The translations under genes and the position numbers were made by a program. A stretch of 64,000 nt of DNA from Naegleria lovaniensis (lineage: Eukaryota > Heterolobosea > Eutetramitea > Acrasida > Naegleriidae). Location of the stretch: NCBI RefSeq assembly GCF_003324165.1, contig NW_025407824.1, forward strand, positions 372,001 to 436,000, written 5' to 3'. Below are positions 4,323 through 60,728 of the stretch, piece after piece. Numbering within the stretch: position 1 is the stretch's first letter; each line of letters opens with the position of its first letter. A model generated the notes under the pieces. That model searched no databases, was not told the DNA's origin, and saw only the letters and a program-made list of their open reading frames with translations.

Positions 4323-4523
4323 ATTTTTTAACTTGACAAAGTCTAGATCGAGAGTTTGTTTCACAATCACCAACTTGAAAATTAGTCTTTGCTTATCCTC
4401 TTCGTCTGGTCAATCAAAAGTTAACTTGTTGGAAAAATATGAGCACTCAATTGTCCGACGATAGTGTGTCTAATGTAGGTGTGAGAATTGAAACACTCTC
4501 GAAACTTGTTATTGGAAAAAAGA

Positions 4524-20691: not shown

Positions 20692-23600
20692 TCATTCCTT
20701 ATTCTTTCTTTTTCTTGAAGATCTTCTAGAATTTGATGATGCTGTATCATCCTCACTATCATGCTTAGGTGATACTGAAGATGACTTTCTAGAAGACCTT
20801 TTCGAAGATCGTGTAATGTTAGTTGAGTGTGTGTCAGTGTTGTGTGATTGTTGTGATGAATGATGCAGTACCTCATAAAAATTTTGTGTTGATTCATCGG
20901 AACTATTAGATTCTACTTCATCTTTTGATTCATTATCCGCATTATTTTCATCTGACATGTCCAAATCTGAATCTATTTGTTGCAATTGATTTTTCCAATT
21001 TTCAGTGCGCTCCTTTTCACTTTGTTTAATTTCCTCAATTTCTTGTTGAACTGCGTTCATTGTGCGCTCAGTAAGTTGAGTAAAGGCAAATCTGTAGTGC
21101 GAATATAATGTCAAAAAGTATTAATGAAGAATCATGATTACAAATGGAACTTACTGTTCGACTGGTGTCAAATGATTGATGATATCATCTTCTGCCGTTG
21201 CTTCAACGTCTGCAAAATCATTTTGAGATTGTTCCGTTTGCTCTTTTCTTGCATTGCGGAGTGCTGTTGTGATACAATTATGAGTGCATAAAATGTTTCA
21301 AAAAAAATTCGAAACACCATTGTTGTAAGAATGTCATAGCATCAAACCAATACAAACCTTCCACATCATTTTCATCTTCTGCACTTGTGAGAATACGATC
21401 TAAATCTTTCTCATTGTATGTTTCTGTCTCTGATTCCTTTTGTTTGTTATTCTCATTGTTGATCATGTTATTATAAGCACTCATTTGTTCTTCTGCATCG
21501 AGTAGAGCATTCGAAAAACTCTTTTCTGAATCTTTAAACAAATCTCTCACTTCCATTTGATTCTTCAAGAAATCAGGTGTAAATGCTCCATTATGAATCA
21601 CAATTTCATTCATGTGTCTCTTTTGATTCGCTTTCAATAAAATTCTTTCTTCAATTGTAGATTCACTAATGAGACGATAAATATTGACATTTCTAGTTTG
21701 TCCAATTCTATGGCATCTATCTTGTGCTTGTGCGTCCATTGCTGGATTCCAATCACTGTCATAAAATATAACAGTATCCGCCCCTGTTAAATTGATACCA
21801 ACACCTCCACTTCTTGTAGACAAAATGAATGCAAAGATTTTTGGATTGTTATTAAAACATTCCATCATGTACTGTCTTTCTTCAAGTTTCGTTTGACCAT
21901 CAAGTCTAAAATAGGAATGTCCATTCATAGACATAAAAGATTCCAGAACATCTAACATTTTGCTCATTTGTGTGAAAATTAAAACACGATGTCCCTCACG
22001 CTTTAAATCTTTCAACATTGAAGAAAGCTTTTGAAGTTTACCACAATCATATTGCAGTAATCTCTTGTCAGGAAAGTGCATTTGCATTCGAATAGAAGCT
22101 TTTCTAATGAGGTCCAATGTTGGAGAAATTACATGTCGAACCACATGTTGTTCGATTAAATCTTTCTTGAATCGTATGGTAGAGACCTCACGAATTTCAG
22201 GTGCTTCGCTTCTTGCATGAGGAATGAAGCAAACAAAATTGTCCAATTCAAAAGAGAGCTCTTGTTCAAGTTCTTCTAAAGATTTGCACATTGAATGGAG
22301 TACATCTTCAAACTCGTTGCATTTGTGGAAACGTTTCATTTCCTTTTCAAGTGCTATGGATTCAAGAATCTTGATGAAATTGTAACCATAAATTGGTTTT
22401 CTTTCACATCTATGACTATTCACAGATTGCATATAGTTTGCTCTTTCAACTCTGTCTCGATATCTATTCAAAGCCATTTCAAGCGCTCTCTTTTTGAAGA
22501 AGGAGTTATCATTGTGTTGATCAACGTTCAAGTCATGACTGTACATGTGGTATAATTGATCTTGATCTTCAGGTGAAAGGTCTTCTAATTTGAGAAGGGA
22601 AGAGTCTGTCCTGGGAGCGGTGATTGTATTACTTGCAGAAGGGGTTGTCAATGGTGTGGGTATTTGATTGCTGCTGGTATTACTACTAGCATGGTCAGCT
22701 GGTATTGGTCGTAGTGATGAGACTTGATCAAAATTTTCCATACTCATTCGATTTTCATGTTGGGTGAATACAAAATTAAAATAATTCGAGAGAGTAAAAT
22801 ATCGTGATTGCAAGTCATGATAACAATTCAAATAATCATCACTACCATAATAAATAGGATCTAGAATGATCGATTGAATTGGTGCTGATAAAAGAGAAAG
22901 TGGTACAGAAGCAAATGGGGAAATAATTGGTCTTGGTTCAAATAAATCGGGATGGTTACAAACTTTTCTCAATTGCATAACAACATTGATCATTTTGAAA
23001 ACATTTCCAGATGCTAAAGTCTCTCTAGTATCTGCTCTAGAAATAAAGTCTTCATAGAGATTACGTTGCCTCTTTGAAAGCCTAACACGAACGACATGTT
23101 CTTGTTTGGATGGTAATTGCTCAGAAACTTCTTTTTTCAATCTTCTCAAAATAAAAGGTCTTAGAATGGTATGCAAACGAGATATGAGTTCCTTGTTCAT
23201 CTCCTGTTTGCCTTCAACCATACCTTGAATGGAATTGGAAAACCAATCTTTAAACTCGGAGTGTGATTGAAACACATGAGGCATAATAAAGTGCATCAAA
23301 GACCATAACTCCATGACATTGTTTTGGAGAGGTGTTCCAGTCAATAAAAGCCTTCTCTCAGTGTTGAAGTTGAGCAAGCTTTGCCATGTTTGTCCTTTAA
23401 AATTTCTAATGTGATGAGCCTCATCTAAAATTAAATAATGCCATTTTTTGCGTTTGAACATGATCTTGTCTTGAACCACCAAATTATAGGAAGTAATGCA
23501 AACATGAAATGCATTAGGCTTATTCCATCCAACTCTCTTATCTTTTCGTTGTTTTTGTGTTCCATGATAGGCAAGAATTTTCAATGATGGACACCATCGT

Positions 23601-25607
23601 TTAAACTCAATTTCCCAATTCAATAACACGCTCGATGGAACCACCACTAAATGAGGTCCCCATATTTTTTCCGTACAAGCCAAATGAGCAATCAAGGAAA
23701 TAGTCATGATAGTTTTTCCAAGTCCCATTTCATCTGCTAGAATCCCATTCAATCCTTTGTCATGCATGGTTACTAACCAATCTAGACCAATTTGTTGATA
23801 CTCTCTTAATTTGAGATTTTCGTTGAGCAGAAATGGAATGGGTGTTTTCACTTTGGAAGTGGTTAATGTGAATCCTGTTGGTTGATATTGTTTGGCATCT
23901 TCTGCTACTTGATTCATTAAAGAAGATTGTGAATCTTCAAGTGATGGAGGTTGTGAGAGTTCATTGTTTGTTGCTGTGTTTGTCAATGAGGATTCCACAG
24001 GAGCTGAATATTCAGCAGGTTCTTCCGAAACCATCATTGAAGAATCTTTCATTTTATCTGTCAACATGTTCTCATCCTCAACAGGTGCATTGTTATAATT
24101 TTGTTTCATGATGGTATCAATGTCCATTTCACTTTCCTTCTTGAGTTGCTCAATTTCATCTTCGTAATCTTCATCCTCATCCTCTGTATCAATGATGTGA
24201 TCACTATCATCATCCTCACTGGAAGGAGTAAAATCTTGATTGTTAATTTCTTCTTCAGCTTGACTTGTATCATCTTGAAGAGTAGAATTTGTTGTTTCAC
24301 TTGTCACCGATATTAAATCTTGAGATATGAGCTGTGTGTACTTTTCTGTTTGTTTAACAAGCAAATCTCTCTTTTCAGCAAGTAATTGTTGCTTGGTGTC
24401 ATCAATGATGGATTGATTTTTGTATTTGACTAATTTGGCAATCTTTTCCCAGAAATCCTTTTTTACCAATTTTGCAATCTTTGAGGCTTGTTTTCTCAAA
24501 TTCAATTCAATCTCTTTCTGCTTCTTAATTTCTTGTTGTTCCAATTGTTGATGATATTTTGCAACGCTTTTTGCATATTTTTTAGCTGTTGTAACTTTCC
24601 ATTTTCTACTTTGAGCAAAATCTTTGGCTATAAATTCCATTTCCTCGAGTAAATAATCCCAATGACTTCTATTTCTTTTTGGTTCTTTTCCAATCTTTTG
24701 TTGTGTCTGTGGTAGCCATTCACCTTTTCTTTGCATTTCTTTAATCTCTTTAAGTATTGTTTCTTCTTTAGAAAGTAATTCATCTTCCATTCTCTTTTGT
24801 TCATTCTCCTCTGTTGTTGTTTTTACTTTCTTTCGTGAAGGTTGATATTCAACATCTTCATCTTTTGATTCCTCATTCTCTTCATCCGATAAATTGTCCA
24901 TTGTAGTTGCTGACTGTGTGATGAGTGAGTCATGATCTTTGGATCTTGTCTCTTCATATTGGTTGTCTGATCGGGATGATGATTCGCCTACTTTTGAATC
25001 AGAGTCAATACTCGTAGTAGCAGCGGGAGTGGTAGTAGATGGTGGTTTGTGGATGGCTGTCGACGATTGGGTGGTGGGAGGTGTTGAAGGAGGTGATGTT
25101 GTTGAGTTTGGAGAGGAAGAAGTGGCTGATGAGGAGGTTGTTGATGGTGTATGAGAGTATGATTTGCTGCTGCTGTCGGATAGAGGATGCATAGAAATTG
25201 TTGATTCATCACGTGGCTGATGAGGCTCTAAACTCTGCTGCAAGGCTTCCATAATGGAAAAATCAATTCTAGATGATTCATCCAAAGTCTGAGAATGATA
25301 CCGCGAATAATTAGGATGATGATTCGATTTGATAAATGTTATTTCATTTTGAATATTTTGATGATGCTTTTTGAGAATTCTTTATGGAGATTGATCACGA
25401 GAGAAGGACCATATTAATTATCATCTCTGTTTTTGAATATACAATAACAAGTACTTACTCAATTGCTCGTTGCGGAGTTAAAGCATCATCGCTACTATTT
25501 CCATCCAAAGACGTTGGTTTATGAATTCCATTCGAGTCGTGATGGTGGAGAAGATATGGATCAGTTTTCGTTCGAGTCGTATGTCTCGTTTGCCTTGTTG
25601 GAGGCAT
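20692..25607 (-). CDS. SWR1: SWR1/SRCAP/EP400-type Snf2 chromatin-remodelling ATPase
   Basis: Four exons: 25459-25607, 21358-25268, 21155-21263 and 20692-21091 (1522 residues). All phases agree, though the first acceptor (TCTAG) is weak. Members exchange H2A.Z for H2A in nucleosomes. Domains: an acidic/Ser-rich N terminus; HSA at ~250-325 (SHWDYLLEEMEFIAKDFAQS); Snf2 ATPase from ~537 with LADEMGLGKT, LILDEAHHIRN and GTPLQNN; a long insertion between helicase lobes; HELICc with LIFTQMSKMLD, RSGGVGINLTGADT and QDRCHRIGQTR. The exon 3/4 junction restores EALRNAREQTE and LTPVEQFAFTQL, the post-helicase motif of the SWR1 class. A Ser/Arg/Lys tail then ends at TGA. Two donors upstream of that stop (20871, 20775) are in phase with the SANT block at 20504. 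Confidence 0.9.
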
Positions 25608-25945: not shown

Positions 25946-28270
25946 TTACATGCTGGGAATGGAAGAAAGCGAGCTAATACTTCCAAATATTACTCCCTTT
26001 CTCATTACCTTCTTTGGTGGCTGAATTTGCAGAGTTTTGAGGATCCATTTCATTCCTTCCTCAAATCCTTCCAAAGTTAAAACGGACAAGGGTTGAATGA
26101 AATAGTTGGTTGTACTGGGTAATGGTTTCGAATCCAATAATTTGCTCACTTCAGAACATGGAACTGCTTGGGGACGATCTATTTTGTTCACAAATATGAG
26201 AATTGGAACATTCTCTAAGTCTTTCGCATGAGCTACCCTATTTAATTCATCAATAGCTTCTTGCAATCGATCCTTATCTGAGCTGTCAATGACAAAGATG
26301 ACACAATCTGTGCGTTCATAGTAATGACGCCAAAGTGGTCGAATTTTTTCTTGACCACCAACATCCCAAACTTTGATGCAATAATCACCATGGTGGTGCG
26401 CACGTCGTTGGTCATAACAATATGATGAATGCAGTTCGTAATCATGATGAGTGTGTACAAAAATATGCTTACCAGTAAAGTCAACATTCTCATAGAAAAG
26501 AGTCTCAACATTAAAACCGATGGTTGGTATTGTTGTAACTATTTCACCCAGTGTCAACTTGTAGAGAAGTGAAGTTTTACCACTTTGATCAAGACCCAGT
26601 AACAAGAGACGAGGTTCTTCCTTTAGTGAACGAAAGGTTTTAAATGGTGGATGATGTTGTTGTTGATGATGATGATTGCATGATCGAGCATGTGGACCAA
26701 ATTTAATCTTCTCCCATACATCATCTGAAATTGCATTTTGGAGTCTAAATAAAGTTTTTAAGAGATGGTCTTTCAAATCCATGATCATTGTTGAGAGTTT
26801 GTTTCGATTATCACTATCTTGCATCACTAGTACTGGTATACTATTATGGGTCACATTTGGATCCATACTACTACTACTACTACGAGTAGTGTTGTTGTTG
26901 TTGTCCTTGTGCAATTCCTTTCCCATTTGAATAAAAATATTAAACACAACCCCATAGAGAATTTCTCCTGAACATTTTAACCAAGGCAAAAATTCATTCA
27001 ATAATTGAACTCCATACACATATCGATGTTGAAAATCATGTAGAGTCCACATACTAATAAGAATAGCAATTTGATCCACTGCCAAACGACAATGGTTCGA
27101 TTGAAAAATTCCTCTCAATATTTCCACGGGGAGTGTGATTATAATACGTGCATGAACACTAAATTGCATGGAAGCTAACAATGCACATACTTCCCTCTTA
27201 GAACTGAGGGTTTTGATCATGGGATATTCATCCTCCATACATTGAGCAAAATCATCAAGAGAGTGACAATGTGAAAATTTTAAAATAAGATCATCTCGTT
27301 TCAATGGAATGTTATGATAGACATGATCACTCAGAATACATTCAACATGATTGGCAATAATATCCATGGCTTGATTAAAAATAATATTCTTTGAATTTTC
27401 ATATTGTAAAGAGTGCAAACACATGAGTGCAATGGTTAATGCATTAAATTCATTCACAGTGTTACGAATTGCTTTCAATAAACTCGTCACTTGAAAGTAA
27501 TCTGCTATTTTCAATAATTGAAAAACATCTTTCATGGTTATTATTGTGTGTGAAGAAGGTATCGATTCTACAAGTTCACCTTTTGAATAGTCACAACTAC
27601 TCTTCTCGAGGTGTGAATCATGCATCTTTTCGGAAGAAGAAGAAACATACAGAACTTGTGGAACACCTAATGAACCTGTATGAATAAATTCAAGTAGTAA
27701 TTTAAAATAATGAATGATCTGATTACAATGATCATCACCCATGGATGATGTCATCAATAATAAATGTTCATTCATGACTGAGTGGGTGAGAAGTATACTA
27801 CTACTACCTCCATCGTCGTTACCATCATGATGTGAAGAAGAAGTAATCTCATGAGTATTCACAAGATTGGCCAACACTGAACTATAATTACAAATAGCAC
27901 TCTTTGAAACCCAAAATTGTTTTTGAAGTGTGGAGAGAATGCAATAATCTTGAATGGGTTGACCATCCCATGTTGTGAACTTGAACATGGAATTATTGAT
28001 TTCTTTGGAGGGAGTACTATGGGAGTGAGCATTGGTTCCATATTCGAAATGGTTGATGATGGTGAATTCACCATGGTCATCAAGATCTTGATGCGACACC
28101 GAATCTTCGCCATTCTCTTCATCTCTCACCAAATAAAAATACAAATGATGTTGCGCCTCACCAATGAGTTGCTCATTGGGCTGACTCGAAGACCCTCCGT
28201 AATAAATTGATTTTTGTGGTACTATCTTTTCATCAAAATACCAATGAGAATGATCGAATTCAGAGTTCAT
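25946..28270 (-). CDS. BTB/BACK-ARF GTPase fusion protein
   Basis: The start is ATG at 28270; the frame extends upstream only from GTG. The N-terminal part has a BTB-like domain ([17 protein letters not shown], then [11 protein letters not shown] and [12 protein letters not shown]), with a long insert, then a helical BACK-like region ([17 protein letters not shown]). The C-terminal ~190 residues are a canonical ARF GTPase: [11 protein letters not shown] (P-loop), [10 protein letters not shown] (switch I), [17 protein letters not shown] (switch II) and FVNKID. Between the switches the raw frame carries 34 extra residues; these are an intron, 26371-26472, with donor ACTG|GTAAGC and acceptor CATCAAAG, phase 1. 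Removing it gives NVDFTVWDVGGQ, exactly the ARF spacing. Spliced length is 740 residues. BTB domains commonly bind cullin-3; here ARF may serve as a regulated module. The usual ARF myristoylation site is lost in the fusion. Confidence 0.88.
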
Positions 28271-38076: not shown

Positions 38077-38269
38077 TTAATTCGTTATTTTTTTTTTAAT
38101 GATTGAAATTGCTAATAATATTTAGTTTCCGTTTTTCCATGCTGCCTCAGGTAATTATTTGTGATTCATTATGATGAAACTATTGATAATTTGGTTTCAA
38201 TATTGGCCAATTCATGTTCCATCATCAAATTGCATCTCGAAAACAATAAAAATTCAACAATCAAAAAAA

Positions 38270-41200
38270 ATGAGCATTCAACCAAGCCAAAACGTTACGC
38301 TGGAAGACAAAGTGCATGAGCGTGTGGTGCAACACGTTCATCTTCCAAAGCGAATTTCTCAAATTCGGTTCAGTGTTTTTACTCCGGAAGATATTAGAAG
38401 AATGTCTACAATACAAGTTTTTAACCATTATTATTATACACCAGATAGACGAGGCTTTCCTCATGGTCCTCTTGATCCGAGATTGGGTACCGGAACGAAG
38501 AAAGATATCTGTGAGACGTGTGGCTTGGGAGTAGCAGATTGTATCGGGCACTATGGATATGTAAAACTAGAATTACCAGTGTTCCATATAGGCTTCATTT
38601 CTAATGTTGTAGAGATTTTACAAAGAATTTGCAAAGACTGCTCACGTGTTTTATTGACAGATTCAGAAATTCAAACTTTCAGAAACAAATTTAAGAAACC
38701 AAATCTAGATAACCAACAGAAAAAAGCAATTTACAAAAAAGTGGGAGAATTATGTAAAAAGTGCTCTACGTGCCCTCATTGTGGTGCATTGAATGGAAAG
38801 GTAACAAAATTGAACGCAATCAAAATTGTTCACGAAAAGTATAAAGTACCTTCCACTAGAAAAGGAAAAGAAGAAGTGGATCAACAAGCTAGAGAATTTC
38901 ATTCAGAGTTTGAACGAGCCACTCAATTAAATCCAGAAATTTCAACTTATATAGGTGAGGCTCAAGATGACATCAACCCCATAAGATGTCTTAAATTATT
39001 CAAAAACATTCCAGATACAGATGTTGAGGCTTTTAACATGAATCCCCGAGTTGTGAGACCAGAAAATTTTATACTCACTCATATTTTAGTCCCACCACTT
39101 GTTATTAGACCCTCTGTAAACACTGATGGCGGTACAAACGAAGATGATCTCACTGTTCAAATGAAAAAGATTATTGAAACAAACATAATTCTAAGAGAAA
39201 GCATCGAAAAGGGTCATTTTGTCGAAAACTTTATGGAAAAGTGGGACGCACTACAATTAGAGACTGCCCTCTACATTAATAGCGATACGAGAAACATTCC
39301 TTCTTACGTGACAAAGAAAAAGATTGGCAAAACTCTATGCCAAAGATTGAAGGGCAAACATGGTAGATTTAGAGGCAACCTGAGTGGTAAGAGAGCAAAT
39401 TTTACGGGACGTACAGTCATTTCTCCAGATCCAAACTTGGAAATTAATCAAGTTGCAATTCCAGAGCTGGTTGCTAAAGTTTTGACGTATCCTGAGGTGG
39501 TCAATAGAAATAATAAGAAATTACTTCAGTCATTAATTTTGAACGGACCTGAAGTTCACCCAGGAGCCAACTTTGTGGTTAAAAGTGATGGAGTAAGAAA
39601 GAATTTGAGTTTTGTAAAGGACAAAATGGATATTGCAAAGAACTTGAAATTTGGTGACATTGTTGAACGCCACGTCATGAACGGAGATTATGCCTTATTT
39701 AACAGACAGCCCTCGCTGCACAGACTCAGTATTATGTGTCACCGTGTTAAGGTATTGCCTTACAGAACTTTCAGATTCAACGTTTGTGATTGTGCACCAT
39801 ATAATGCAGATTTCGACGGAGATGAAATGAACGTACACATTCCTCAAACCGAAGAAGCAAAAGCTGAAGCAGGAATGCTTATGGACATTCTAAAAAATCT
39901 CATCACACCTAAGAACGGAGATCCAGTTATTTCTTGCAACCAGGACTTTTTAACAGCTGCTTGGAAAATGACCAGAAAGAATACTTTCTTTGATCGTGCA
40001 GAATTTTGCATGTTGTGTTCCTATATGGGCATTGAAGATAAGAAGATTGACTTGCCTCCACCTACCATTTTGAAACCTATTGAACTATGGACTGGAAAAC
40101 AACTATTTTCCTTATTGATCAAACCTAACAATAACACAAAAGTGTTTGTAAACTTCGAAACCAAGGCCAAAAACTATTGGAAAGATGAAACCATGTGCCC
40201 AAATGATGGTTACGTATGCTTTAGAAACAGTTACTTGATTTGTGGAAATTTGGATAAGAAGATTTTGGGAGATGGCAGCAAGAGTTCGCTATTCTATGTA
40301 TTGATCAGAACAGTAGGTCCTGCATATGCTGCTGCGTGTATGGCAAGAGTGGCTCGAGTAGCTTCCAGATGGTTAATGAATCATGGTTTTTCTATTGGTA
40401 TTGATGACGTCATGCCTTCACCATCTCTAACAGAAAAGAAAAAGATGATTTTATCGGAGGGTTATAAGGTGTGTGATCAGTACATTAAACTTTTCAAAGA
40501 TGGTAAACTGGAACCTCAACCTGGTTGCAACATGGAACAAACTCTTGAAGCGAAACTCAATAAGGAATTATCAGAAATTAGAGGTAGAGCAGGTAGTATG
40601 TGTGTGGATGAATTGCACTGGTCGAATGCTCCTCTTACAATGTCAGTGTGTGGTTCTAAGGGTTCTGTGATCAATATTTCACAAATGATTGCTTGTGTTG
40701 GGCAACAAACGGTTGGTGGTACTCGTATTGCTAATGGTTTCATGAATAGAACGTTACCTCATTTTCCAATGTTTGCAAGAGATGCAGCAGCAAAAGGTTT
40801 TGTTTCTAACAGCTTCTTTACTGGTCTGACTCCAACAGAATTTTTCTTCCACACTATGGGAGGCAGAGAAGGAATTGTCGATACAGCTGTTAAAACTGCA
40901 GAAACTGGTTATATGCAAAGAAGATTAATGAAAGCTCTTGAAGATTTATTTGTTGCCTATGATGGATCGGTGAGATCTGCAGACAATTCAATCATTCAAT
41001 TCAAGTATGGTGATGATGGAATGGATCCTCATCGAATGGAAAGCGAAGAGAGTGGAAGACCTCTCAATTTCTCGTTTATCATGATGCACGAAAAGAATAC
41101 CAATTTACCAACAAAGAATGAAAGAGCTCTCACTCCAATCGAAATTACAGAAAAAGTTGAACAATATCTCCAAGAACCTTCTTCACGCACACTATTTTCA

Positions 41201-42562
41201 GACAAGTTTATGGATGAACTGAGAACCTTCATGAACAATTACACCAGTAAGCTTGAAAATATGCTAAAAGGAGTAGAATCAGCTCGATCCAAGAGAACAT
41301 CTGAATTTGAAAAAGATGCATGGGATGTAGTTGTACATTATATTGAGAAAATTACTGAAAGACAATTACTTGCATTCTTACATTCTTGCAGACGTAAATA
41401 TGAAAAAGCATGTGTAGATCCTGGAGAACCAGTGGGAGGTATTGCTGGTCAATCCATTGGTGAGCCAACCACTCAAATGACTTTGAAAACTTTCCACTTT
41501 GCTGGTGTTGCCAGTATGAACGTTACGTTGGGTGTTCCTCGTATTAAGGAAATTATTGATGCTACTAAGAACATTAGTACTCCAATCATTACAGCATATT
41601 TAGACACTCCAGCAACAGCTTCAAAGAAACAAAAGGAAATTTCTGCACGTATGGTCAAGGGAAGAATCGAAAAAACAACATTGGGTCAAGTTGTTAATCA
41701 CATTCGAGAAGTTTACAATTTAGGAATTTGCTACATTGAAATTGAACTAGATATGAAGCAAATTTCTGCTCTTCAACTTGATATCACTCCAGAAACAGTT
41801 AGACATAGTATTTTGCATTCTCCTCTTATGAAATTTGAAAAGTCAAAAGATAAGTCAAAAGACAGCAAAACTAAATTATCTGATGATCCTAATTTAGTTA
41901 GAATTCAAAACGGTAATATCAGAGTATATCCTCCATCTGTAGATAGAGACAGCATGTATTTCAATATTCAAAGATTGAAGAGATATTTACCTGAAGTAAT
42001 TGTTGCAGGTATTCCAACAACTAATAGAGCTGTCATTAACGAAGAAAAGGGAAATATTTATCTTTTAGTTGAAGGAATGGACTTACTTGCAGTCATGGGA
42101 GTTCCAGGTGTGCATGCCAAAACGACCAAGACCAACAACATTATTGAAATCTCAACAACCCTAGGCATTGAATCTGCTCGACAAGTCATTATGGATGAAA
42201 TCAAATACACCACAGGTAGTTACGGTATGAATATTGACACGAGACATATCAAATTATTGGCTGACATTATGACATTTAAAGGAGATATTTTCGGTATTCA
42301 AAGACATGGTATCATTAAGATCAGAGACAGTGTGTTAAAGATGGCATCTTTCGAACAAACAACAGACCATCTCTTTGAAGCTGCATCACATACCAGAGTT
42401 GATGATGTCAATGGTGTCAGTGAATGTATTATCATGGGCGTTCCAATTCCTATCGGTACTGGTTTGTTCAAGCTGTTGCAAGATGCTCATGTAGAAAAGA
42501 AGAGAACACTTCCAATTAACAGAAAACGACCAATTTTCTCTACAAAATCACTCCTCAAATAA
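38270..42562 (+). CDS. RPC1: DNA-directed RNA polymerase III largest subunit
   Basis: A protein of 1430 residues; ATG at 38270 follows eight A. The frame is open 99 bases upstream from another ATG (38171) but that stretch is not family-like. It transcribes tRNA, 5S rRNA and U6 genes in the nucleus. Zinc-binding elements are visible early (CETCGLGVADCIGH; CSTCPHCGALNG). The catalytic NADFDGDEMNVHIPQTEEAK loop with three metal-binding Asp lies at about residues 512-530. RFRGNLSGKRANFTGRTVIS precedes it, and GEPVGGIAGQSIGEPTTQMT is the trigger loop/bridge region. RPC1 identity over Pol I and II comes from HEKYK, GPEVHPGANF, the absence of a CTD heptad repeat and overall length close to human POLR3A. 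Stops of this gene and of the next are only 41 bp apart, tail to tail. Confidence 0.97.
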   Translation: MSIQPSQNVTLEDKVHERVVQHVHLPKRISQIRFSVFTPEDIRRMSTIQVFNHYYYTPDRRGFPHGPLDPRLGTGTKKDICETCGLGVADCIGHYGYVKLELPVFHIGFISNVVEILQRICKDCSRVLLTDSEIQTFRNKFKKPNLDNQQKKAIYKKVGELCKKCSTCPHCGALNGKVTKLNAIKIVHEKYKVPSTRKGKEEVDQQAREFHSEFERATQLNPEISTYIGEAQDDINPIRCLKLFKNIPDTDVEAFNMNPRVVRPENFILTHILVPPLVIRPSVNTDGGTNEDDLTVQMKKIIETNIILRESIEKGHFVENFMEKWDALQLETALYINSDTRNIPSYVTKKKIGKTLCQRLKGKHGRFRGNLSGKRANFTGRTVISPDPNLEINQVAIPELVAKVLTYPEVVNRNNKKLLQSLILNGPEVHPGANFVVKSDGVRKNLSFVKDKMDIAKNLKFGDIVERHVMNGDYALFNRQPSLHRLSIMCHRVKVLPYRTFRFNVCDCAPYNADFDGDEMNVHIPQTEEAKAEAGMLMDILKNLITPKNGDPVISCNQDFLTAAWKMTRKNTFFDRAEFCMLCSYMGIEDKKIDLPPPTILKPIELWTGKQLFSLLIKPNNNTKVFVNFETKAKNYWKDETMCPNDGYVCFRNSYLICGNLDKKILGDGSKSSLFYVLIRTVGPAYAAACMARVARVASRWLMNHGFSIGIDDVMPSPSLTEKKKMILSEGYKVCDQYIKLFKDGKLEPQPGCNMEQTLEAKLNKELSEIRGRAGSMCVDELHWSNAPLTMSVCGSKGSVINISQMIACVGQQTVGGTRIANGFMNRTLPHFPMFARDAAAKGFVSNSFFTGLTPTEFFFHTMGGREGIVDTAVKTAETGYMQRRLMKALEDLFVAYDGSVRSADNSIIQFKYGDDGMDPHRMESEESGRPLNFSFIMMHEKNTNLPTKNERALTPIEITEKVEQYLQEPSSRTLFSDKFMDELRTFMNNYTSKLENMLKGVESARSKRTSEFEKDAWDVVVHYIEKITERQLLAFLHSCRRKYEKACVDPGEPVGGIAGQSIGEPTTQMTLKTFHFAGVASMNVTLGVPRIKEIIDATKNISTPIITAYLDTPATASKKQKEISARMVKGRIEKTTLGQVVNHIREVYNLGICYIEIELDMKQISALQLDITPETVRHSILHSPLMKFEKSKDKSKDSKTKLSDDPNLVRIQNGNIRVYPPSVDRDSMYFNIQRLKRYLPEVIVAGIPTTNRAVINEEKGNIYLLVEGMDLLAVMGVPGVHAKTTKTNNIIEISTTLGIESARQVIMDEIKYTTGSYGMNIDTRHIKLLADIMTFKGDIFGIQRHGIIKIRDSVLKMASFEQTTDHLFEAASHTRVDDVNGVSECIIMGVPIPIGTGLFKLLQDAHVEKKRTLPINRKRPIFSTKSLLK

Positions 42563-45728: not shown

Positions 45729-48308
45729 TTAACAACTGTCATGCAACAAATCTTCATTCTTTCTTCGTATCCAATTGATGGCACTGCCTGCCTTAAACCA
45801 CTCAATTTGTGTTTCATTCATCGTGTGTTGTAGTGGAATTTGAATTTGTGGTTTTCCTTTAACTGTTAAAGTTAATTTTGAGTTTGGTGACAAAGTTGTT
45901 ACTCCAGTAATGGAAATGATATCAGTCTCAGGATTAATAAGATCATAATCCGATGGATTTACAAAAGTTAAAGGTAAAATACCTTGCTTTTTCAAATTTG
46001 TTTCGTGAATACGCGCAAAGCTCTTTGTAATGATTGCCTTGCAACCAAGGAATCGAGGTTGAAGAGCTGCATGTTCTCTTGCACTGCCTTCTCCATAATT
46101 TTCTTCTCCAATCACAATCCAAGATGTTTTGTGTTCTCTTTGGTACTGTTTTGCAACTTCAGGAACAGTATCTTCTTTTCCTGTGAAGATATTCTTGACA
46201 CAATTAATCTTGTTGTTCATGGCATTCTGAGATGGACATGATAAAAATTCATGTTTTTAAAACATGCTAGAAGATCAACCATTTGTACTTACCATAGCTC
46301 CAATAAGAGTACAGTTACTAATATTTTCTAAATGACCCTTATAGTTCAACCATTTACCTGCAGGTGAAATGTGGTCAGTCGTACATTTTCCTGCAACCTT
46401 AATGAGAACTGGTAGATCAATAAAGTCGTTCTTGTTCCATGCCTCGAAAGGTTTTAAGAACTGCAGTCGATCACTCTTCGGGTCAATGTTGATGGTTACT
46501 TTTTTACGTTCTTGTAAAGGAAGTGGTTCCAAATATGGTGACAAGTTCAGTGAAGATCTTTCAAATCCTCTTGATGGTAACTCTTCGCTTTGAGGAGAAG
46601 TGAATTTGAATTCCTTTCCATCTGAACCAATCAAAGAATCAGTGAGTGGATTAAAATCAATTCTACCAGCAAAGGCCATGGACATGACCAACATGGGAGA
46701 AGTTAAAAAGTGAGAGGTCAATAAATTTCCATCGTTTCTGCCTGTGAAGTTTCTATTAAAAGATGAAACAATGGAATTCTTCTTTCCTTTATGGTCGGTT
46801 CTATTCCATTGACCAATACAAGGTCCACAAGCATTTGCTAAAATTTTAGCACCAACTTGTTCAAATATTTCTAACAAACCATCTCTCTTCATGGTTGCAA
46901 ATATTTGTTCTGATCCTGGACTGATAAAGAGTTGAGATTTGCTCTTCAAGCCATGTGCAAGAGCTTGTTTTGCAATAGAGGCAGCACTTGTTAAATCTTG
47001 ATAGGAACTATTGGTACAAGAGCCAATCAATGCTGCAGATAGTTCAGGAGCATATTCATGCACTTTGACTTGTTCTGCAAATTGAGAAAGAGAGAATGAA
47101 CGATCAGGAGTAGCTGGACCATTAATCATTGGTTCCAATTCATTCAAGTTGATTTCAATCACTTGATCGTATGTTGCACCTTCATCTGCCTTCAAATAGT
47201 CTGCATATTCATCTGCCTGATCCGCAATGGATGCACGATTGGTTGCTCTCAAATATCTTGACATGGCTCTAGTATAGGGAAATATGGAAGTGGTTGCACC
47301 AACCTCAGCACCCATATTACAAATAGTGGCCATACCTGTACATGATAACGAATGCACACCTTCACCGAAATATTCAATAATGTATCCAGTACCACCCTTC
47401 ACGGTCAACATTCCAGTTAACTTTAAAATCACATCTTTAGCACTGGTCCATTCATTCAATGTTCCAGTCAATTTGACACCCAGAATCTTGGGACGTTTTA
47501 ATTCCCAAGGAATGGCGCTCATGACATCTACGGCATCAGCACCACCAACACCAATCGCAATCATTCCCAAGCCTCCAGCGTTGGGTGTATGGCTATCACA
47601 TCCGACCATCATTCCTCCAGGAAAAGCATAGTTTTCTAAAACAATTTGATGAATAATTCCTGAACCTGGATTCCAGAAACCTAATCCTAACGCCTGAGAT
47701 GCAGATTCTAGGAAATTAAACACTTCACCACTCTCTTCAAAGGCTTTTTCAACATCTTTTTTTGCAAGAGTTTCCTTTTTCTGAGATATGGTACTACTCT
47801 CCAATGATCCTTCACCAACAATTAAGTGATCGCAATGAACAGTTGTTGGAGTTTGTGTCTTGGGTAATCCTGTAGTCAAAAATTGTAAAATGGCTGTTTG
47901 AGCACTTGCATCTTGCAAAGCAACTCGATCTGGACGAAATGGTAGATAACTATCCTTGGTACTGGCATTAAATGATTTAGCAACAAGATCCTTTGCTTTT
48001 TCGTAGTCATAAATGTGGGCTTTTAGAATTTTCTGGGCATAGGTCAAGGCTTGTGATTGGTCTTGTTTCAATCGTTCATAAATTATTTTTTGGGCCTTTA
48101 ACGTTTCTTCCACATCGTATTTCGGTGGTAAAGTGGATGAAGACGAGGTACTACTATTGCTGCTCGTTGATGTGGTAGACAATGATGAAAATCGAATATT
48201 TTGATGACTTGATAATTGTTGATTCATAACGGAGCTATTGCTTCGGAGCTTTGTGTGTAAACCAAGTGATGATTGAATCACTTTTGATGAAGTACTCGTC
48301 TTTAACAT
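45729..48308 (-). CDS. ACO2: Mitochondrial aconitate hydratase
   Basis: Exons are 46293-48308 and 45729-46226; 837 residues with a 66-nt phase-0 intron (CTATG|GTAAGT, CATCTCAG). Aconitase isomerises citrate to isocitrate in the matrix. Iron-sulfur ligands are visible in GSCTNSSY and in NACGPCIGQW. Other signatures are CDHLIVGEG, GGMMVGCDSHTPNAGGLGM, NRNFTGRNDG and, in exon 2, GEENYGEGSAREHAALQPR. The first ~60 residues are Ser/Thr-rich with basic residues and no acid, fitting a long matrix-targeting presequence; that explains a length above the usual ~780. Mitochondrial over cytosolic (IRP-type) identity follows from family similarity. Confidence 0.97.
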
Positions 48309-48479
48309 TCTGGAATTTATCAGAGAAAAGTTTCAATTCTACTTGAATGCAACGAAACGAAAAGGATCAATTGCTGCGAATTTTTTTCTTGATTCTCGGG
48401 GAATTTCAAATAAAATAGAAAGCATGCTGTTTTTGTCAAAGACACGAAATGCATCGTCACAGTCTGAAATTTATTCGTC

Positions 48480-52948: not shown

Positions 52949-53075
52949 GTGTGTTATTAAATATATTTTTACAAATTATTATTTTCTTTGAAATGTTGGG
53001 TGTGATTACAATCATTGGAATTATAATCATGGATTAAAAAGACCTTCTTCATTCACAACAAGAAAAAAATAGTGG

Positions 53076-54674
53076 ATGGCAAACCAACGATTTCAATCAC
53101 TGCTGCTGGGACATTGGCGTGTCATGTGGCCAAATGTCCTTGTCATGTTGTTGTTGTCGTTGTTGTGGATTACTCTATCACTCGTTCAATCACTTGATAT
53201 TATTCCAAACAGTGTTGGCTCTTCCGACGTTTATCAACATATTGTCAAGATTTCAAAAAGAAGAGGAGGCCACGATCTGTCACCACTTGATTTTCAATCA
53301 AAAGGATTTACTGTAATTCCTACCAGTGATGATCACGAAAATATTTTCATGTTTTTAGGAGATGAAGAATTATATCAATTGAAATCTCTCTCAGCAACAA
53401 GAAATGAATTACAAATTTTATATTCTCGAAACAAACTCGTGTCAGATCATGTTATGAATACAAATGAAGATGAAAATGATATTGAAATGGTAAAGGAAAT
53501 GATATTGGCACAATTTAATCCTTCTTTGAAAAAAGAATTATTGAAACTCTACAGTGGATTTAATCAAGTACCAACAGATTATCCAACCATTGAAAATATT
53601 AATAATTATTTGAAAGGTTTAGAAACGAGATTTCCAGGAAGAGCTAAAATGGTGAAAATTACACAACAACCAACTTTTGAGAATCGACATATTTATGGTG
53701 TGAAAATATCCAATAATGTCAATGAAGATCGAGATGTTCCCAATATTCTTATTGTGAGTGCTCATCATGCAAGAGAAATTAACACAGTCATCACGAGCAT
53801 AGTTATTATTGAAAAACTGCTTTCTGACACGAACAAATTTGGAAAGATTCTACAACATTATCAAATTTATATCATTCCAGTGGTGAATGTGGACGGATAT
53901 CATTACGTTTTCTCAACAAATAATTGGTGGAGAAAGAACAGAAGATTTATAGGATATCATAATGGAACAAAATCATTTGGTGTGGATTTAAATAGAAACT
54001 ATGACATTGGATTTGAGAAATGTGCTGGCAATTCAACATTGAACTCGGATTTGTTTAAAGGAGAATTTGCATTCTCTGAAATTGAGACAAGTGCAATCAG
54101 AGACTTTTCCAAACGTGTGGGTGGATTTTCCAAAGTTCTTGATTTTCATAGTTTAGGAAGACAAGTACTCACAGGTTACACTTGTACGTTTAATGCTCAG
54201 CAAGATTATATTGCCAAGTTAGGAGAAGAGTTGGCTTCCAAGGTTAAAAATTATAAGACTCGTGTGCCTCATGCTGATGGAGAACATCAAGAATATCACA
54301 TCAAACAGTATACCTCCTATTCATTTTTAATTGAGATTATGGACTCTTTCCAACCACCTTTTGCTGAAAGTGTGAAAGAATCGATCGAATTGATGCCTCT
54401 CGTCGAACACTTTTTTAATAAGGCCATTCCATTGAGGGGTCACGTGTATGACATCCAAACAGGCAAGCCACTCAACAATGTGAACATTCAAATTATTGGC
54501 GTTGATTGGAAAGCTGGAGAGAGTAGACACACCAATCACTTTGGAAGTTTTTATTTATTCTTACCCTCCAATACACAATACGATCTCCTATTTTCATACC
54601 AAGGTAGAGTGTTAAAGACCAGGGTTCTCTTGGGTCACGACAATGAGTCACAAATTCTAGACGTACGTTTGTAA
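53076..54674 (+). CDS. Secreted M14 zinc carboxypeptidase with C-terminal TTL domain
   Basis: A single exon of 532 residues; ATG at 53076. A signal/anchor segment (VLVMLLLSLLWITLSLV) opens it, followed by a ~130-residue pro-region. The M14 core has the zinc ligands in HAREI (H231, E234) and in the DFHSLG strand (H358), the substrate-binding DLNRNY and the catalytic Glu in LIEIMD (E420). After the catalytic domain comes a transthyretin-like domain (RGHVYDIQTGKPLNNVNIQI), typical of the carboxypeptidase N/E subfamily. It would trim C-terminal residues in the secretory pathway or lysosome. Confidence 0.93.
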   Translation: MANQRFQSLLLGHWRVMWPNVLVMLLLSLLWITLSLVQSLDIIPNSVGSSDVYQHIVKISKRRGGHDLSPLDFQSKGFTVIPTSDDHENIFMFLGDEELYQLKSLSATRNELQILYSRNKLVSDHVMNTNEDENDIEMVKEMILAQFNPSLKKELLKLYSGFNQVPTDYPTIENINNYLKGLETRFPGRAKMVKITQQPTFENRHIYGVKISNNVNEDRDVPNILIVSAHHAREINTVITSIVIIEKLLSDTNKFGKILQHYQIYIIPVVNVDGYHYVFSTNNWWRKNRRFIGYHNGTKSFGVDLNRNYDIGFEKCAGNSTLNSDLFKGEFAFSEIETSAIRDFSKRVGGFSKVLDFHSLGRQVLTGYTCTFNAQQDYIAKLGEELASKVKNYKTRVPHADGEHQEYHIKQYTSYSFLIEIMDSFQPPFAESVKESIELMPLVEHFFNKAIPLRGHVYDIQTGKPLNNVNIQIIGVDWKAGESRHTNHFGSFYLFLPSNTQYDLLFSYQGRVLKTRVLLGHDNESQILDVRL

Positions 54675-57008: not shown

Positions 57009-60000
57009 TTACATTTTGAAAGCACTGATTGGCAAGGTGAGAATGGAATTTTGTTCTACCTTATTATTCTTCACTAATTGTCTGATGAGAGAGATGGCCA
57101 GAGCTAGTGGAGTTTGTTTGTGTGAATTTTGAATCCATGTGGATCGAGAGTCTTCTGGGAAGTTCTGCAAATCAGTAAACAGAAATTGCAAGTCTCCAGC
57201 CAAGTCGATGGCAGAGAATGTATACGTTTTTAAGCTGGTAACATCAATGACTTGATGATAAATAGTTGCTGTCTTCAATTGTTTGATAGATTTTCCATAC
57301 TTGACTTGTACGACAGGTTTGCGTTTCAACTCCAACTGCGCTCCACAATCGTATCTTCCATCCTTTTTAGCTCTAGTAATGTCACCTTTGTAAACCGCTT
57401 CAATCAGATAAGCATTCATCTTTTGTACACATTCTCTTACAGAAACTCCATTAATATAGAAAATTCTTCCACCTGATTCTGTTATATCTTTAAATTGGGC
57501 TTCATTTAAATTAGGAGATCCATAGCTTCTAATTTTCAGATAATAGTTCGCATCCTTGCTCGTTGAACCAGGAATAAAATTGACGGACTTCTTTCTAAGG
57601 CCCGTGTCCATGCCTATACCCATATACATTCTATAAGGTCTCTTGTGATTTCTTTTTGGTGGAGTAATGAACTGTTTGAACGTTGAAATGATACAAAATT
57701 TCACAACCTCTGCATCAACAATCCCTTCTAGCAATCCATGATCTACAATGATAAAACTTTCATTCAAACCAAACTTGACAATTTGATTCCAGCAAGAAAT
57801 CACAAAATCATTATATTGGTTCATTCTCTCCAATGAGCCAGCATGAGCTAGCAATAGTCCACAATCTACAATTGGGCTTCTGAACCATTTGTTCTCTGTT
57901 TGTATCTTATGAAGAAGCAAAATTGGATTCTCATATTTTGGACCATTGTCTTCAGAGTAAACGTATCGAATGTAGCAATGTAAAAATGTCTCTCCATGTT
58001 CATCTTGTGCATTTCGAGAAATATCGGCTCTTTTACAGAGCTTTTCAATCATTTCTAAATTGTTGGTGATGGCACATAGGTGTAGTGCTGTCCGTTTCAT
58101 TTTGTCTGCCTCATTAATTCTCAAATTAGGATGATCTAACAGAATCTTTGCAGTTCCCTCAAGGCGAAATATACAAGCATAATGTAACGGAGTCATTCCA
58201 AAGTCATCCTTTACGTTCGGTCTAATCTTGGATTTCTTTAAACATTGATACAAGGATTTAGTGACGTGCTTCTTTTTAGCACTCAAAACATCTCTCTTCA
58301 AAATTTCTCTTAACTTATCGTTGGATAACAGTTGCAACGAATGACAAGATCCAATAATATAAAGAGAGCATGATAAATTGTGTTGAGTGATACAATAGTC
58401 CAACGGATATTTTCCATCGTTGTTTTTCAACGCCAAGTTAGCTCCTTTCTCTTTGTGAAGATATTCTAAAACATCTCTATAGCCGTACCAGCAGACTGCA
58501 TGTACTAACGTATCTCCCTTCTCGTTGAGCTTTGTATTCACATTATTAACTTGTTGTAAATATCGATCGACCGCTTTCTTTTCTTTGACCATGGCTTTAG
58601 GTATCATTTCTAACTCGTCAATTTGTTCATTATTATCAGCTTCAGTTTTGGAAACAGTAAATTGAGAACTCGTTTCAAACTCTTGCCTTAAATTGATTAA
58701 ACTTTCTCTAGCAATGTCTCTAATACTCTTTTCAATAAATTGAACACCTTGCGAAGTGTTATTTCCATCGAATATTTTCAAATCTTTTTTCTTATCTGAG
58801 TTTGTTCTTTCAATAATTGCTAATACTATTTCTCTAATTACGCTCTTACTTGCTATTGAAACCAAAGATGAGAGTTGAGATGAACATTGTTTCTCAAGTA
58901 AATTCAAGCTACAATCATTTGGAAGCATTCCAAACTTGATATAGAGTATCTCAAAGATTTTGTACAATGTTTGTGTAAGAGTATCAAAATCTTTGGGATC
59001 TAACAATCCAAGTTGGATAAAATCAAAATAATTTTGATTATCGTCCAAATCATCGTCATCGTCTTGAATACTAGAAAATCCATTTGGCATTGCATTTGAG
59101 GTATTTGGAATAGCATTGGGATTGTATGAAGAGCCTATACTGAAAATGTCAGATCTATTGTCATTGTCAAAATGTGACGGAGGAACATGAGGATACTCAA
59201 TGGCATGATTATCTCCAAAATCGGTTTCAAATTTTGAAGAAAATGATGGTGCAATAAACGATTGTCTACACATAATGGCTTCTAAATTATGACCGTCATG
59301 TTTCCAACTAGTCTTGTCAAAGGAATCCTCTCTTACAGTAAGAGGAGTCGTCAAGGAGGGAGTTGGATAATCTATTTCATCTTCCTCCGGCCTTACATAA
59401 ATATCAAAAGAAATTGTAGCTCTGTGATCGAATGCTTCTTCACTTTTAGAATATACAGAGCTAGTAGTATTGTTGAAGGGTACATTATTGGGCATGTGTA
59501 TTGCTGCTGTAGTGTTGGTGTTGTTGCTCATGTTGATTGAAGGTGGTCTCGGAAGAGGTTTGAGTTTTTTCTCTTCTTCTTCTACATTAAAACTCACGCT
59601 CTTAGATCGTCTCTTTTGCTCAACTTGAGGGTTGTGCTGCTGAGAGATGTTATTCGACGGTGGAGTTTGCGGCGACAAGCTATTTCTCTTGTTGTTCGAA
59701 TGTAATGTTGGAGACAATTCTGCATGACTTTTTTGTGGTGGTTGAGCATGAGGATCATAAATTCCTGTCACGGAATGACGATGTAACTCGTGTGGTTGTT
59801 CATGAATCACATGTCTTTCATACGGTACAAGAGGATGTTGTTGCCCGATTACGGAATCGTGAGTTGATGATGAGCCTTGTTGATGATGAACCGAGGAAGA
59901 AGGAAATGTGTAGAGAGAGGAAGTACGAATAGGAAGAGGAGGAAGTGGTGAGTTTTGTGATGGTGGAATGACATGAGGTTGTACAACGAAACTGTTCAAT

Positions 60001-60233
60001 GGAGATGTAACGTCTTGTTGCTGAACACTGTTCAAAACATTTGGATGTTGATGGATCGCTCTATTTTGAAAGTAATGATCCACTTTTGAAAACAATTGGT
60101 CGACATTGCTATCAAACACGCCGTTGTTATTATTGTTCATGGAGGTGTGATGATTATTGAAATTATAATTAATAATGGCATTCAATGGTGGTTGTGTTGT
60201 GGTTGATACCACTGTATTGCTTGGTTTATTCAT
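57009..60233 (-). CDS. Ankyrin-repeat protein of unknown function
   Basis: A single exon of 1074 residues from ATG at 60233. The first ~400 residues are disordered (Asn/His/Pro-rich, with acidic DDDDD). A helical domain follows (DFDTLTQTLYKIFEILYIKF, LVSIASKSVIREIVLAI), then about four ankyrin units: GDTLVHAVCWYGYRDVLEYL, GKYPLDYCITQHNLS, GMTPLHYACIFRLEGTAKIL and RTALHLCAITNNLEMIEKL. A long C-terminal globular region (~850-1074, e.g. GGRIFYINGVSVRECVQKM) has no family I recognise. Cytoplasmic or nuclear scaffold is inferred from ankyrin alone. Confidence 0.75.
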   Translation of the reverse strand: MNKPSNTVVSTTTQPPLNAIINYNFNNHHTSMNNNNNGVFDSNVDQLFSKVDHYFQNRAIHQHPNVLNSVQQQDVTSPLNSFVVQPHVIPPSQNSPLPPLPIRTSSLYTFPSSSVHHQQGSSSTHDSVIGQQHPLVPYERHVIHEQPHELHRHSVTGIYDPHAQPPQKSHAELSPTLHSNNKRNSLSPQTPPSNNISQQHNPQVEQKRRSKSVSFNVEEEEKKLKPLPRPPSINMSNNTNTTAAIHMPNNVPFNNTTSSVYSKSEEAFDHRATISFDIYVRPEEDEIDYPTPSLTTPLTVREDSFDKTSWKHDGHNLEAIMCRQSFIAPSFSSKFETDFGDNHAIEYPHVPPSHFDNDNRSDIFSIGSSYNPNAIPNTSNAMPNGFSSIQDDDDDLDDNQNYFDFIQLGLLDPKDFDTLTQTLYKIFEILYIKFGMLPNDCSLNLLEKQCSSQLSSLVSIASKSVIREIVLAIIERTNSDKKKDLKIFDGNNTSQGVQFIEKSIRDIARESLINLRQEFETSSQFTVSKTEADNNEQIDELEMIPKAMVKEKKAVDRYLQQVNNVNTKLNEKGDTLVHAVCWYGYRDVLEYLHKEKGANLALKNNDGKYPLDYCITQHNLSCSLYIIGSCHSLQLLSNDKLREILKRDVLSAKKKHVTKSLYQCLKKSKIRPNVKDDFGMTPLHYACIFRLEGTAKILLDHPNLRINEADKMKRTALHLCAITNNLEMIEKLCKRADISRNAQDEHGETFLHCYIRYVYSEDNGPKYENPILLLHKIQTENKWFRSPIVDCGLLLAHAGSLERMNQYNDFVISCWNQIVKFGLNESFIIVDHGLLEGIVDAEVVKFCIISTFKQFITPPKRNHKRPYRMYMGIGMDTGLRKKSVNFIPGSTSKDANYYLKIRSYGSPNLNEAQFKDITESGGRIFYINGVSVRECVQKMNAYLIEAVYKGDITRAKKDGRYDCGAQLELKRKPVVQVKYGKSIKQLKTATIYHQVIDVTSLKTYTFSAIDLAGDLQFLFTDLQNFPEDSRSTWIQNSHKQTPLALAISLIRQLVKNNKVEQNSILTLPISAFKM

Positions 60234-60728
60234 TTGGGTCCAAAATGTGTCTTTGGATGATCGTGTATTGATGATGAAAAGGATTCGGAGGAGGTTGATT
60301 TTGTTCGAAGAAGATTGATTCAGAGTGATACGAGCCGTTCCACTATTCTAAGCATGGAGTTTTTCTTTTAGAAGACTCGAATTAGAAAAAGGGTGAGGTT
60401 TGAAAAAATAAAAAGGAATTGCAAAACAACGGTAAATGACAGCATGCTTCTCTGCTGCTCAATAAAGAAGGCATTTACCTCATGATGTGTGTTCAAATAA
60501 GAGCATTCAATGCCTCAAGTAGCAGCGCTTATGAATTTACTGTGGAGTACTTTTAAAAAACAACTGAAGTCTCCCGTTCTACGGTCGTAATGAACCACAC
60601 ACAATAAGGAGTGTGTTGTCATTCATAAATTAAGGTTAAAGTACAGTGGTCTCAAAATTGAAGTTCTCTCATCAAAATTAATGTAAGCCAATAATTTGCT
60701 CCCATAAATGACTTTGAGTCAGGTCGTT
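60234..60728. other. Intergenic, promoter of ankyrin gene
   Basis: A 495-bp gap, AT-rich with A/T runs and no coding frame; it lies upstream of the ankyrin-protein start and downstream of the 60729 gene's stop. No gene was recognised. Confidence 0.45.

Follow-up and report, generated by a model that had tools for sequence, protein, structure and literature searches.

The question raised by this locus is whether a long open reading frame of the amoeba Naegleria lovaniensis really encodes a BTB module and an ARF-family GTPase in one protein, and what such a protein could do. The window, by which we mean the whole 64,000-nucleotide stretch of DNA that was analysed, has a GC content of 35.5% and carries on its minus strand an open frame of 782 codons running from 28294 to 25946, the first ATG of which lies at 28270. 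The coding score is positive in 20 of the 23 scoring windows along the unspliced frame. Judged from the sequence, the most likely product is that of a spliced gene encoding about 740 amino acids, in which an ARF-class GTPase is carried, as an internal, C-terminal domain, on a BTB/BACK-like module (Table 1).

Table 1. Predicted features of the BTB-ARF gene and ordinary neighbouring genes, in positions of the window.
Feature	Position	Strand	Description	Basis
Exon 1	26473..28270	-	ATG to interswitch: N-terminal motif, BTB, BACK-like region, linker, P-loop, switch 1	open frame, spliced model
Probable intron	26371..26472	-	102 nt, GTAAGC...AAAG (ends CAAAG), phase 1, stop-free in reading frame	
Exon 2	25946..26370	-	remaining ARF domain (WDVGGQ, NKID), C-terminal tail with FGSI, stop	
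N-terminal motif	28127..28156	-	counterpart in all five paralogs	alignments
BTB domain	27446..27946	-	first half diverged; Pfam stretch is residues 219-271, ~27458-27616	limits by eye
Insertion of ~36 residues	27749..27856	-	between BTB helix 3 and the phi-x-E position	
BACK-like region	27023..27445	-	LPVEIL...W.LHDFQHR at 27023-27145	pattern by eye in window copy
ARF GTPase domain	26024..26614	-	probable intron inside	Pfam Arf after splicing, G boxes
RNA polymerase Rpb1-type subunit	38165-42559	+	ordinary neighbour	Pfam
Aconitase	46278-48332	-	ordinary neighbour	Pfam
Cytochrome P450	50994-52658	+	ordinary neighbour	Pfam
M14 carboxypeptidase	53073-54671	+	ordinary neighbour	Pfam
Ankyrin-repeat protein	57012-60347	-	ordinary neighbour	Pfam

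Both halves of the protein can be recognized by profile searches, with very different strength. The unspliced frame matches Pfam Arf (PF00025), its best GTPase family, with 182.6 bits (E 5.9e-54; cut-off 22.3), and a single BTB stretch lies N-terminal to the GTPase. The BTB match (PF00651) is marginal, with 21.9 bits unspliced and 22.2 bits spliced at a cut-off of 20.5. In the alignment, all GTPase boxes are kept, namely the P-loop, the switch threonine, WDVGGQ with Q71, and NKID, as is the F51/W66/Y81 triad, for which we assume the Arf1 numbering and meaning. A first-pass annotation of this DNA had proposed a complete ARF GTPase, in good agreement with the boxes from P-loop to NKID and with the Arf score after splicing. 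Pfam gives nothing ahead of the BTB stretch, so no N-terminal Rab domain was detected, and no RING or B-box match anywhere in the frame; in NCBIfam, only the general small_GTP domain is above the cut-off for the BTB-ARF protein. The protein starts with MNSEFDH, has no N-terminal Gly2 and enters its ARF domain only at about residue 553 of 740. These features support the earlier view that the free, myristoylatable N-terminus with its helix has been lost and replaced in the window copy. Multidomain ARFs are still counted as members of the ARF family (PMC8358228). Collectively, a BTB-ARF fusion can be predicted here with near certainty.

The fusion is not confined to this locus. The genome (30.69 Mb in 97 contigs) was searched with the window protein (at least 41 matches), with Pfam Arf (at least 83 matches, Rab-like and other GTPases included) and with Pfam BTB (at least 87 matches), and a BTB region precedes an ARF domain at five loci: the window copy (A) and paralogs B (L021), C (L022), D (L023) and E (L024). 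The five copies are only 23.5-35.2% identical in pairwise comparison. All of them share an N-terminal motif, [IA]Q-x-x-[LM]-[YL]-[YF]-YL, which lies outside BTB and ARF, together with F[IL]H-x-G-x-x-G-[VI] within the BTB domain and [IK]AD-x-x-x-[VI]-x-x-L behind it. Four of the five also carry a C-terminal FG[SQE][IL] motif past the ARF domain, with IGN at the corresponding place in B. Used as a genome query, the BTB-linker half of D gives eight matches, seven of them at the five loci and the eighth in a BTB frame elsewhere (E 1.4e-4). Pfam BTB is above the cut-off in D (38.2 bits), B (35.4 bits), E (26.5 bits) and the window copy, and C has no match; in a BTB search of the whole genome at E 1e-3, B, D, and E are present and the window copy and C are absent.

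The first-pass annotation had described the N-terminal module as BTB plus BACK, and its BACK part fares less well than its BTB and Arf parts. Pfam BACK is at or above the cut-off in none of the five copies, B alone giving a sub-threshold match (15.9 vs 20.9 bits, E 0.014), and none of the 10 genome-wide BACK matches falls at the five BTB-ARF loci. Furthermore, a PDB search with a profile of the BACK-like region matched no solved structure.

The junction from BTB through the linker to the P-loop lies in an unbroken frame in the window copy and in B, D, and E. A splice boundary or two separate genes at this point, which would have undone the proposed fusion, was considered and rejected, as B, D, and E carry the junction in one frame. 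Paralog C shows a frame break at about position 4360 of its locus, between the BTB part and the linker-ARF part, which many GT-AG junctions could bridge, none of them prominent; an atypical intron, an error in the sequence or a pseudogene state might account for the break.

A separate issue is the 102-nt stretch that sits in the interswitch between VDFT and VWDVGGQ. Its removal gives VDFTVWDVGGQ, and the Arf match, which was split into two stretches with 182.6 bits, becomes a single stretch of 199.5 bits spanning profile positions 8-173 of 174, a gain of 16.9 bits. Under a simple coding model, for which 18 other frames of the window served as the training set, the stretch has a score of -2.97. 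Lower scores are found in only 4.4% of 362 coding windows, and higher ones in 66.8% of 482 stop-free non-coding windows. The absence of a stop codon is not rare for an intron of this size, because 19.5% of 2478 non-coding windows of the same length are stop-free. In addition, a phase 0 intron immediately precedes the W66-aligned codon in paralogs B (241 nt), C (135 nt), and D (165 nt), as placed by script in B and D and by eye in C, and a stand-alone Arf gene (L036, contig C30) has a 139-nt intron at the same place. Paralog E has no intron there and reads through.

The alternative is that these 102 nt encode a real interswitch loop of 34 residues, in which case the protein would be the single frame first read. 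The stretch is divisible by three and without a stop, its GC content of 39% exceeds that of the corresponding introns in B, C, and D (22-31%) and in the stand-alone Arf gene (27%), its splice sites are displaced 2 nt upstream from the shared intron place and fall in phase 1 instead of 0, and its retention would put a strand-like YCIK ahead of VWDVGG. Against this stand the coding score, which is low compared to coding windows and exceeded by most stop-free non-coding windows, and the return of the canonical sequence with its 16.9 bits upon splicing. We therefore regard the loop as distinctly unlikely and the stretch as very probably an intron. The description of the gene as one continuous frame thus holds at the BTB-ARF junction, but over its whole length it requires read-through of this probable intron. 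For the N. lovaniensis genome, this is a caution that an open frame, however long, may include a probable intron.

When the five copies are compared, the GTPase and the BTB halves appear to have decayed in opposite ways. Known ARFs that lose the catalytic glutamine can no longer hydrolyse GTP. At Q71, the window copy has Q, and G, M, T, and S are found in B, C, D, and E, respectively; D also has NMxD at the NKxD box. The triad is complete in B, lacks W66 and Y81 in C, F51 and Y81 in E, and all three residues in D, although W66 is also missing in two stand-alone Arfs of the same genome. The phi-x-E motif, described as the Cul3-contact motif in the BTB alpha3-beta4 loop (PMC3616122), shows the reverse distribution. 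Placed by eye, it reads M-I-E in three paralogs (C, D, and E) and M-M-E in B. The window copy has either E-I-T or, at 27731-27748, M-G-D, depending on which of two possible alignments is used, and the strict motif is absent. A profile of B-E matches the window copy with 93.5 bits over positions 37-162 and with only 0.5 bits over positions 9-41, which makes its alignment in the first BTB half insecure. The resulting pattern, which comprises five genes only, is that the window copy appears to have live GTPase boxes without a strict phi-x-E, and B-E a phi-x-E without the glutamine.

In the simplest reading, one fusion involving an Arf1-type gene would have been followed by duplication. In BLAST comparisons, the stand-alone Arf of contig C30 is the closest match to the ARF domain in A, B, and D (51, 63, and 45% identity, respectively), and the ARF domains of C and E come closest to other Arfs of the same genome. 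A tree of 18 ARF domains of this one genome splits the five copies, with no starred branch; a five-copy clade occurs in 0% of 200 bootstrap trees, and its enforcement is not rejected (p-AU 0.336). Because the ARF tree lacks a five-copy clade, the case for a single origin rests on the shared flanking motifs and the shared intron place. A viral origin is unsupported, as none of 49 pattern matches with the BTB-region profile and none of 84 with the whole-family profile were confirmed in viral contigs. A scan of prokaryote genomes with the whole-family profile gave 38 pattern matches, likewise none confirmed.

The architecture itself is of a known kind, because such fusions are described by Vargova et al. 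(2021, PMC8358228), so that the earlier statement that no described family has it does not stand: their BTB-bearing ARFs, one with detectable BTB and BACK, combine BTB and ARF in one polypeptide as the window copy does. According to the main text, in which the name Naegleria does not occur, 75 of more than 2,000 sequences are multidomain ARF proteins, and the presence of BTB or F-box in some points to recurrent recruitment into ubiquitin-dependent circuits (PMC8358228). The closest layout in that text is a Rab-BTB-BACK-Arf protein of Malawimonas californiana, in which ARF is C-terminal to BTB/BACK as in the window copy. It differs in its N-terminal Rab (PMC8358228), of which none was found in the window copy, and the Naegleria proteins form five paralogs with N- and C-terminal motifs of their own. 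What is newly described here is the set of five BTB-ARF paralogs in one Naegleria genome with halves decayed in opposite ways; neither the set nor the opposite decay was found in the open-licence literature searched. In the partial texts of Naegleria genome papers, Arf does not occur and BTB occurs once, in a reference (PMC8296547), BTB and Arf do not occur (PMC9928731), and BTB does not occur (PMC6125883). The fusion has thus been kept and duplicated into a small family within one amoeba genome.

Among better-known proteins, the BTB-BACK Cul3 adaptors SPOP and KEAP1/KLHL are the best solved BTB matches and resemble B-E in their phi-x-E. The substrate part of these adaptors is a MATH or kelch domain, whereas the window copy lacks the strict motif and has a GTPase as its other half. 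In RhoBTB proteins the GTPase comes first, and TRIM23 has a RING. RhoBTB and Dictyostelium RacA, like the window copy, carry a Ras-superfamily GTPase and BTB in one protein, and the BTB of RhoBTB is linked to cullin-3; however, RhoBTB has a Rho-type GTPase and two BTB domains, compared to one BTB and an ARF placed last in the window copy (PMC8305917). RhoBTB3 is without most of its GTPase domain, which can be compared to the altered GTPases of B-E (PMC8305917). TRIM23/ARD1 also joins an ARF to a ubiquitin-linked module, but has B-boxes, for which the window copy gives no Pfam match (PMC8358228).

A link to cullin-3 was approached from the BTB side and from the cullin side. Against the PDB, the best matches of the family BTB profile are SPOP (E 1.2e-7) and KEAP1 (from 7.8e-5); 47 distinct sequences are matched at E ≤1, the weaker of which include zinc-finger BTB proteins. 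A cullin search of the genome gives 14 matches, some of which are fragments of one gene; of the cullin frames taken from four of six loci, three match Cullin-3 best and one Cullin-4, and that of L030 scores 501 bits to Cullin-3 and 391 bits to Cullin-4B. By sequence similarity, the genome encodes a cullin-3-like cullin.

Most likely, the window protein would act as a GTP-switched BTB scaffold with a weak, indirect or absent Cul3 link, where both binding and mechanism are what we infer. The explanation that best covers the data as a whole, with a probability of about 0.4, would be a spliced BTB-ARF gene with switched ARF heads, BTB dimers, and a Cul3 contact that is weak or supplied by sister proteins. 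As in Arf1, the partners of the ARF half would alternate with nucleotide exchange and GAP-stimulated hydrolysis. The BTB half would form homodimers or, as pure conjecture, mixed dimers, so that two ARF heads would be presented together, or one live head beside a GTP-locked or dead sister head. Contact with Cul3 might be made weakly by the window copy itself, with M-G-D standing where phi-x-E would be expected, or the sisters might provide most of it in mixed dimers.

A scaffold unrelated to Cul3, which only oligomerises and clusters ARF heads on membranes or the cytoskeleton, is possible but on balance less than probable. Many BTB proteins act without Cul3. Such a scaffold would also be consistent with the diverged Cul3-contact loop of the window copy and with the zinc-finger BTB proteins among the weaker PDB matches, but the phi-x-E kept in four of the five sister BTBs speaks against it. 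The proposal of the first-pass annotation, a GTP-switched Cul3 adaptor, seems unlikely for this copy; the window protein itself would then dock on Cul3 by its BTB, and its ARF head would pick substrates in the GTP state. The closeness of the family BTB to SPOP and KEAP1 among solved structures, the encoded Cul3-like cullin, and the repeated recruitment of the ARF family to ubiquitin-dependent circuits (PMC8358228) would all suit it, and for the family, with its phi-x-E in four of five members, such a role may be possible. It is weakest for the window copy, in which E-I-T or M-G-D stands at the phi-x-E position beside the insertion of about 36 residues; the substitution E85A in the corresponding motif of KLHL3 is described as severely disrupting Cul3 binding (PMC3616122). 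A divided-labour ubiquitin ligase switch is quite improbable; in it, the window copy would combine a live ARF head with a blunted Cul3 contact, B-E would combine the Cul3 contact with GTP-locked or dead heads, and BTB heterodimers would let the single live head gate four different Cul3 ligases. Finally, that two adjacent genes or a mis-assembly have been read as one is a general possibility of negligible weight, given that B, D, and E, elsewhere in the genome, have the same junction within a single open frame. The five copies provide a concrete set of proteins for asking whether an ARF-type GTP switch can control a BTB/cullin-3 assembly.

The neighbouring genes named by Pfam are ordinary (Table 1). 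The frame is adjoined on one side by what we take from its sequence to be a helicase-like gene (21278-25285, minus strand) and on the other by a presumably chaperonin-like gene (from 28950, plus strand). In a Pfam scan of ten long frames of the window, four have no match at 1e-4 and one matches only DUF1647. Several other Arf-like genes were noted in the genome. One stand-alone Arf-like frame (L052, C9:684100-685700) has a long Asn/Ser-rich N-terminus, an altered switch 2 (FDIGGFFFKTKQ) and a Ser/Thr-rich insertion ahead of the last strand. Another Arf-like gene (L042, C4:312700-314300) has a long Glu/Lys-rich C-terminal tail and, as far as we can judge, resembles Arl13. A two-exon Arf-like gene is found with similar scores at C35:453k, C42:43k, and C63:105k, perhaps on repeated or haplotype contigs.
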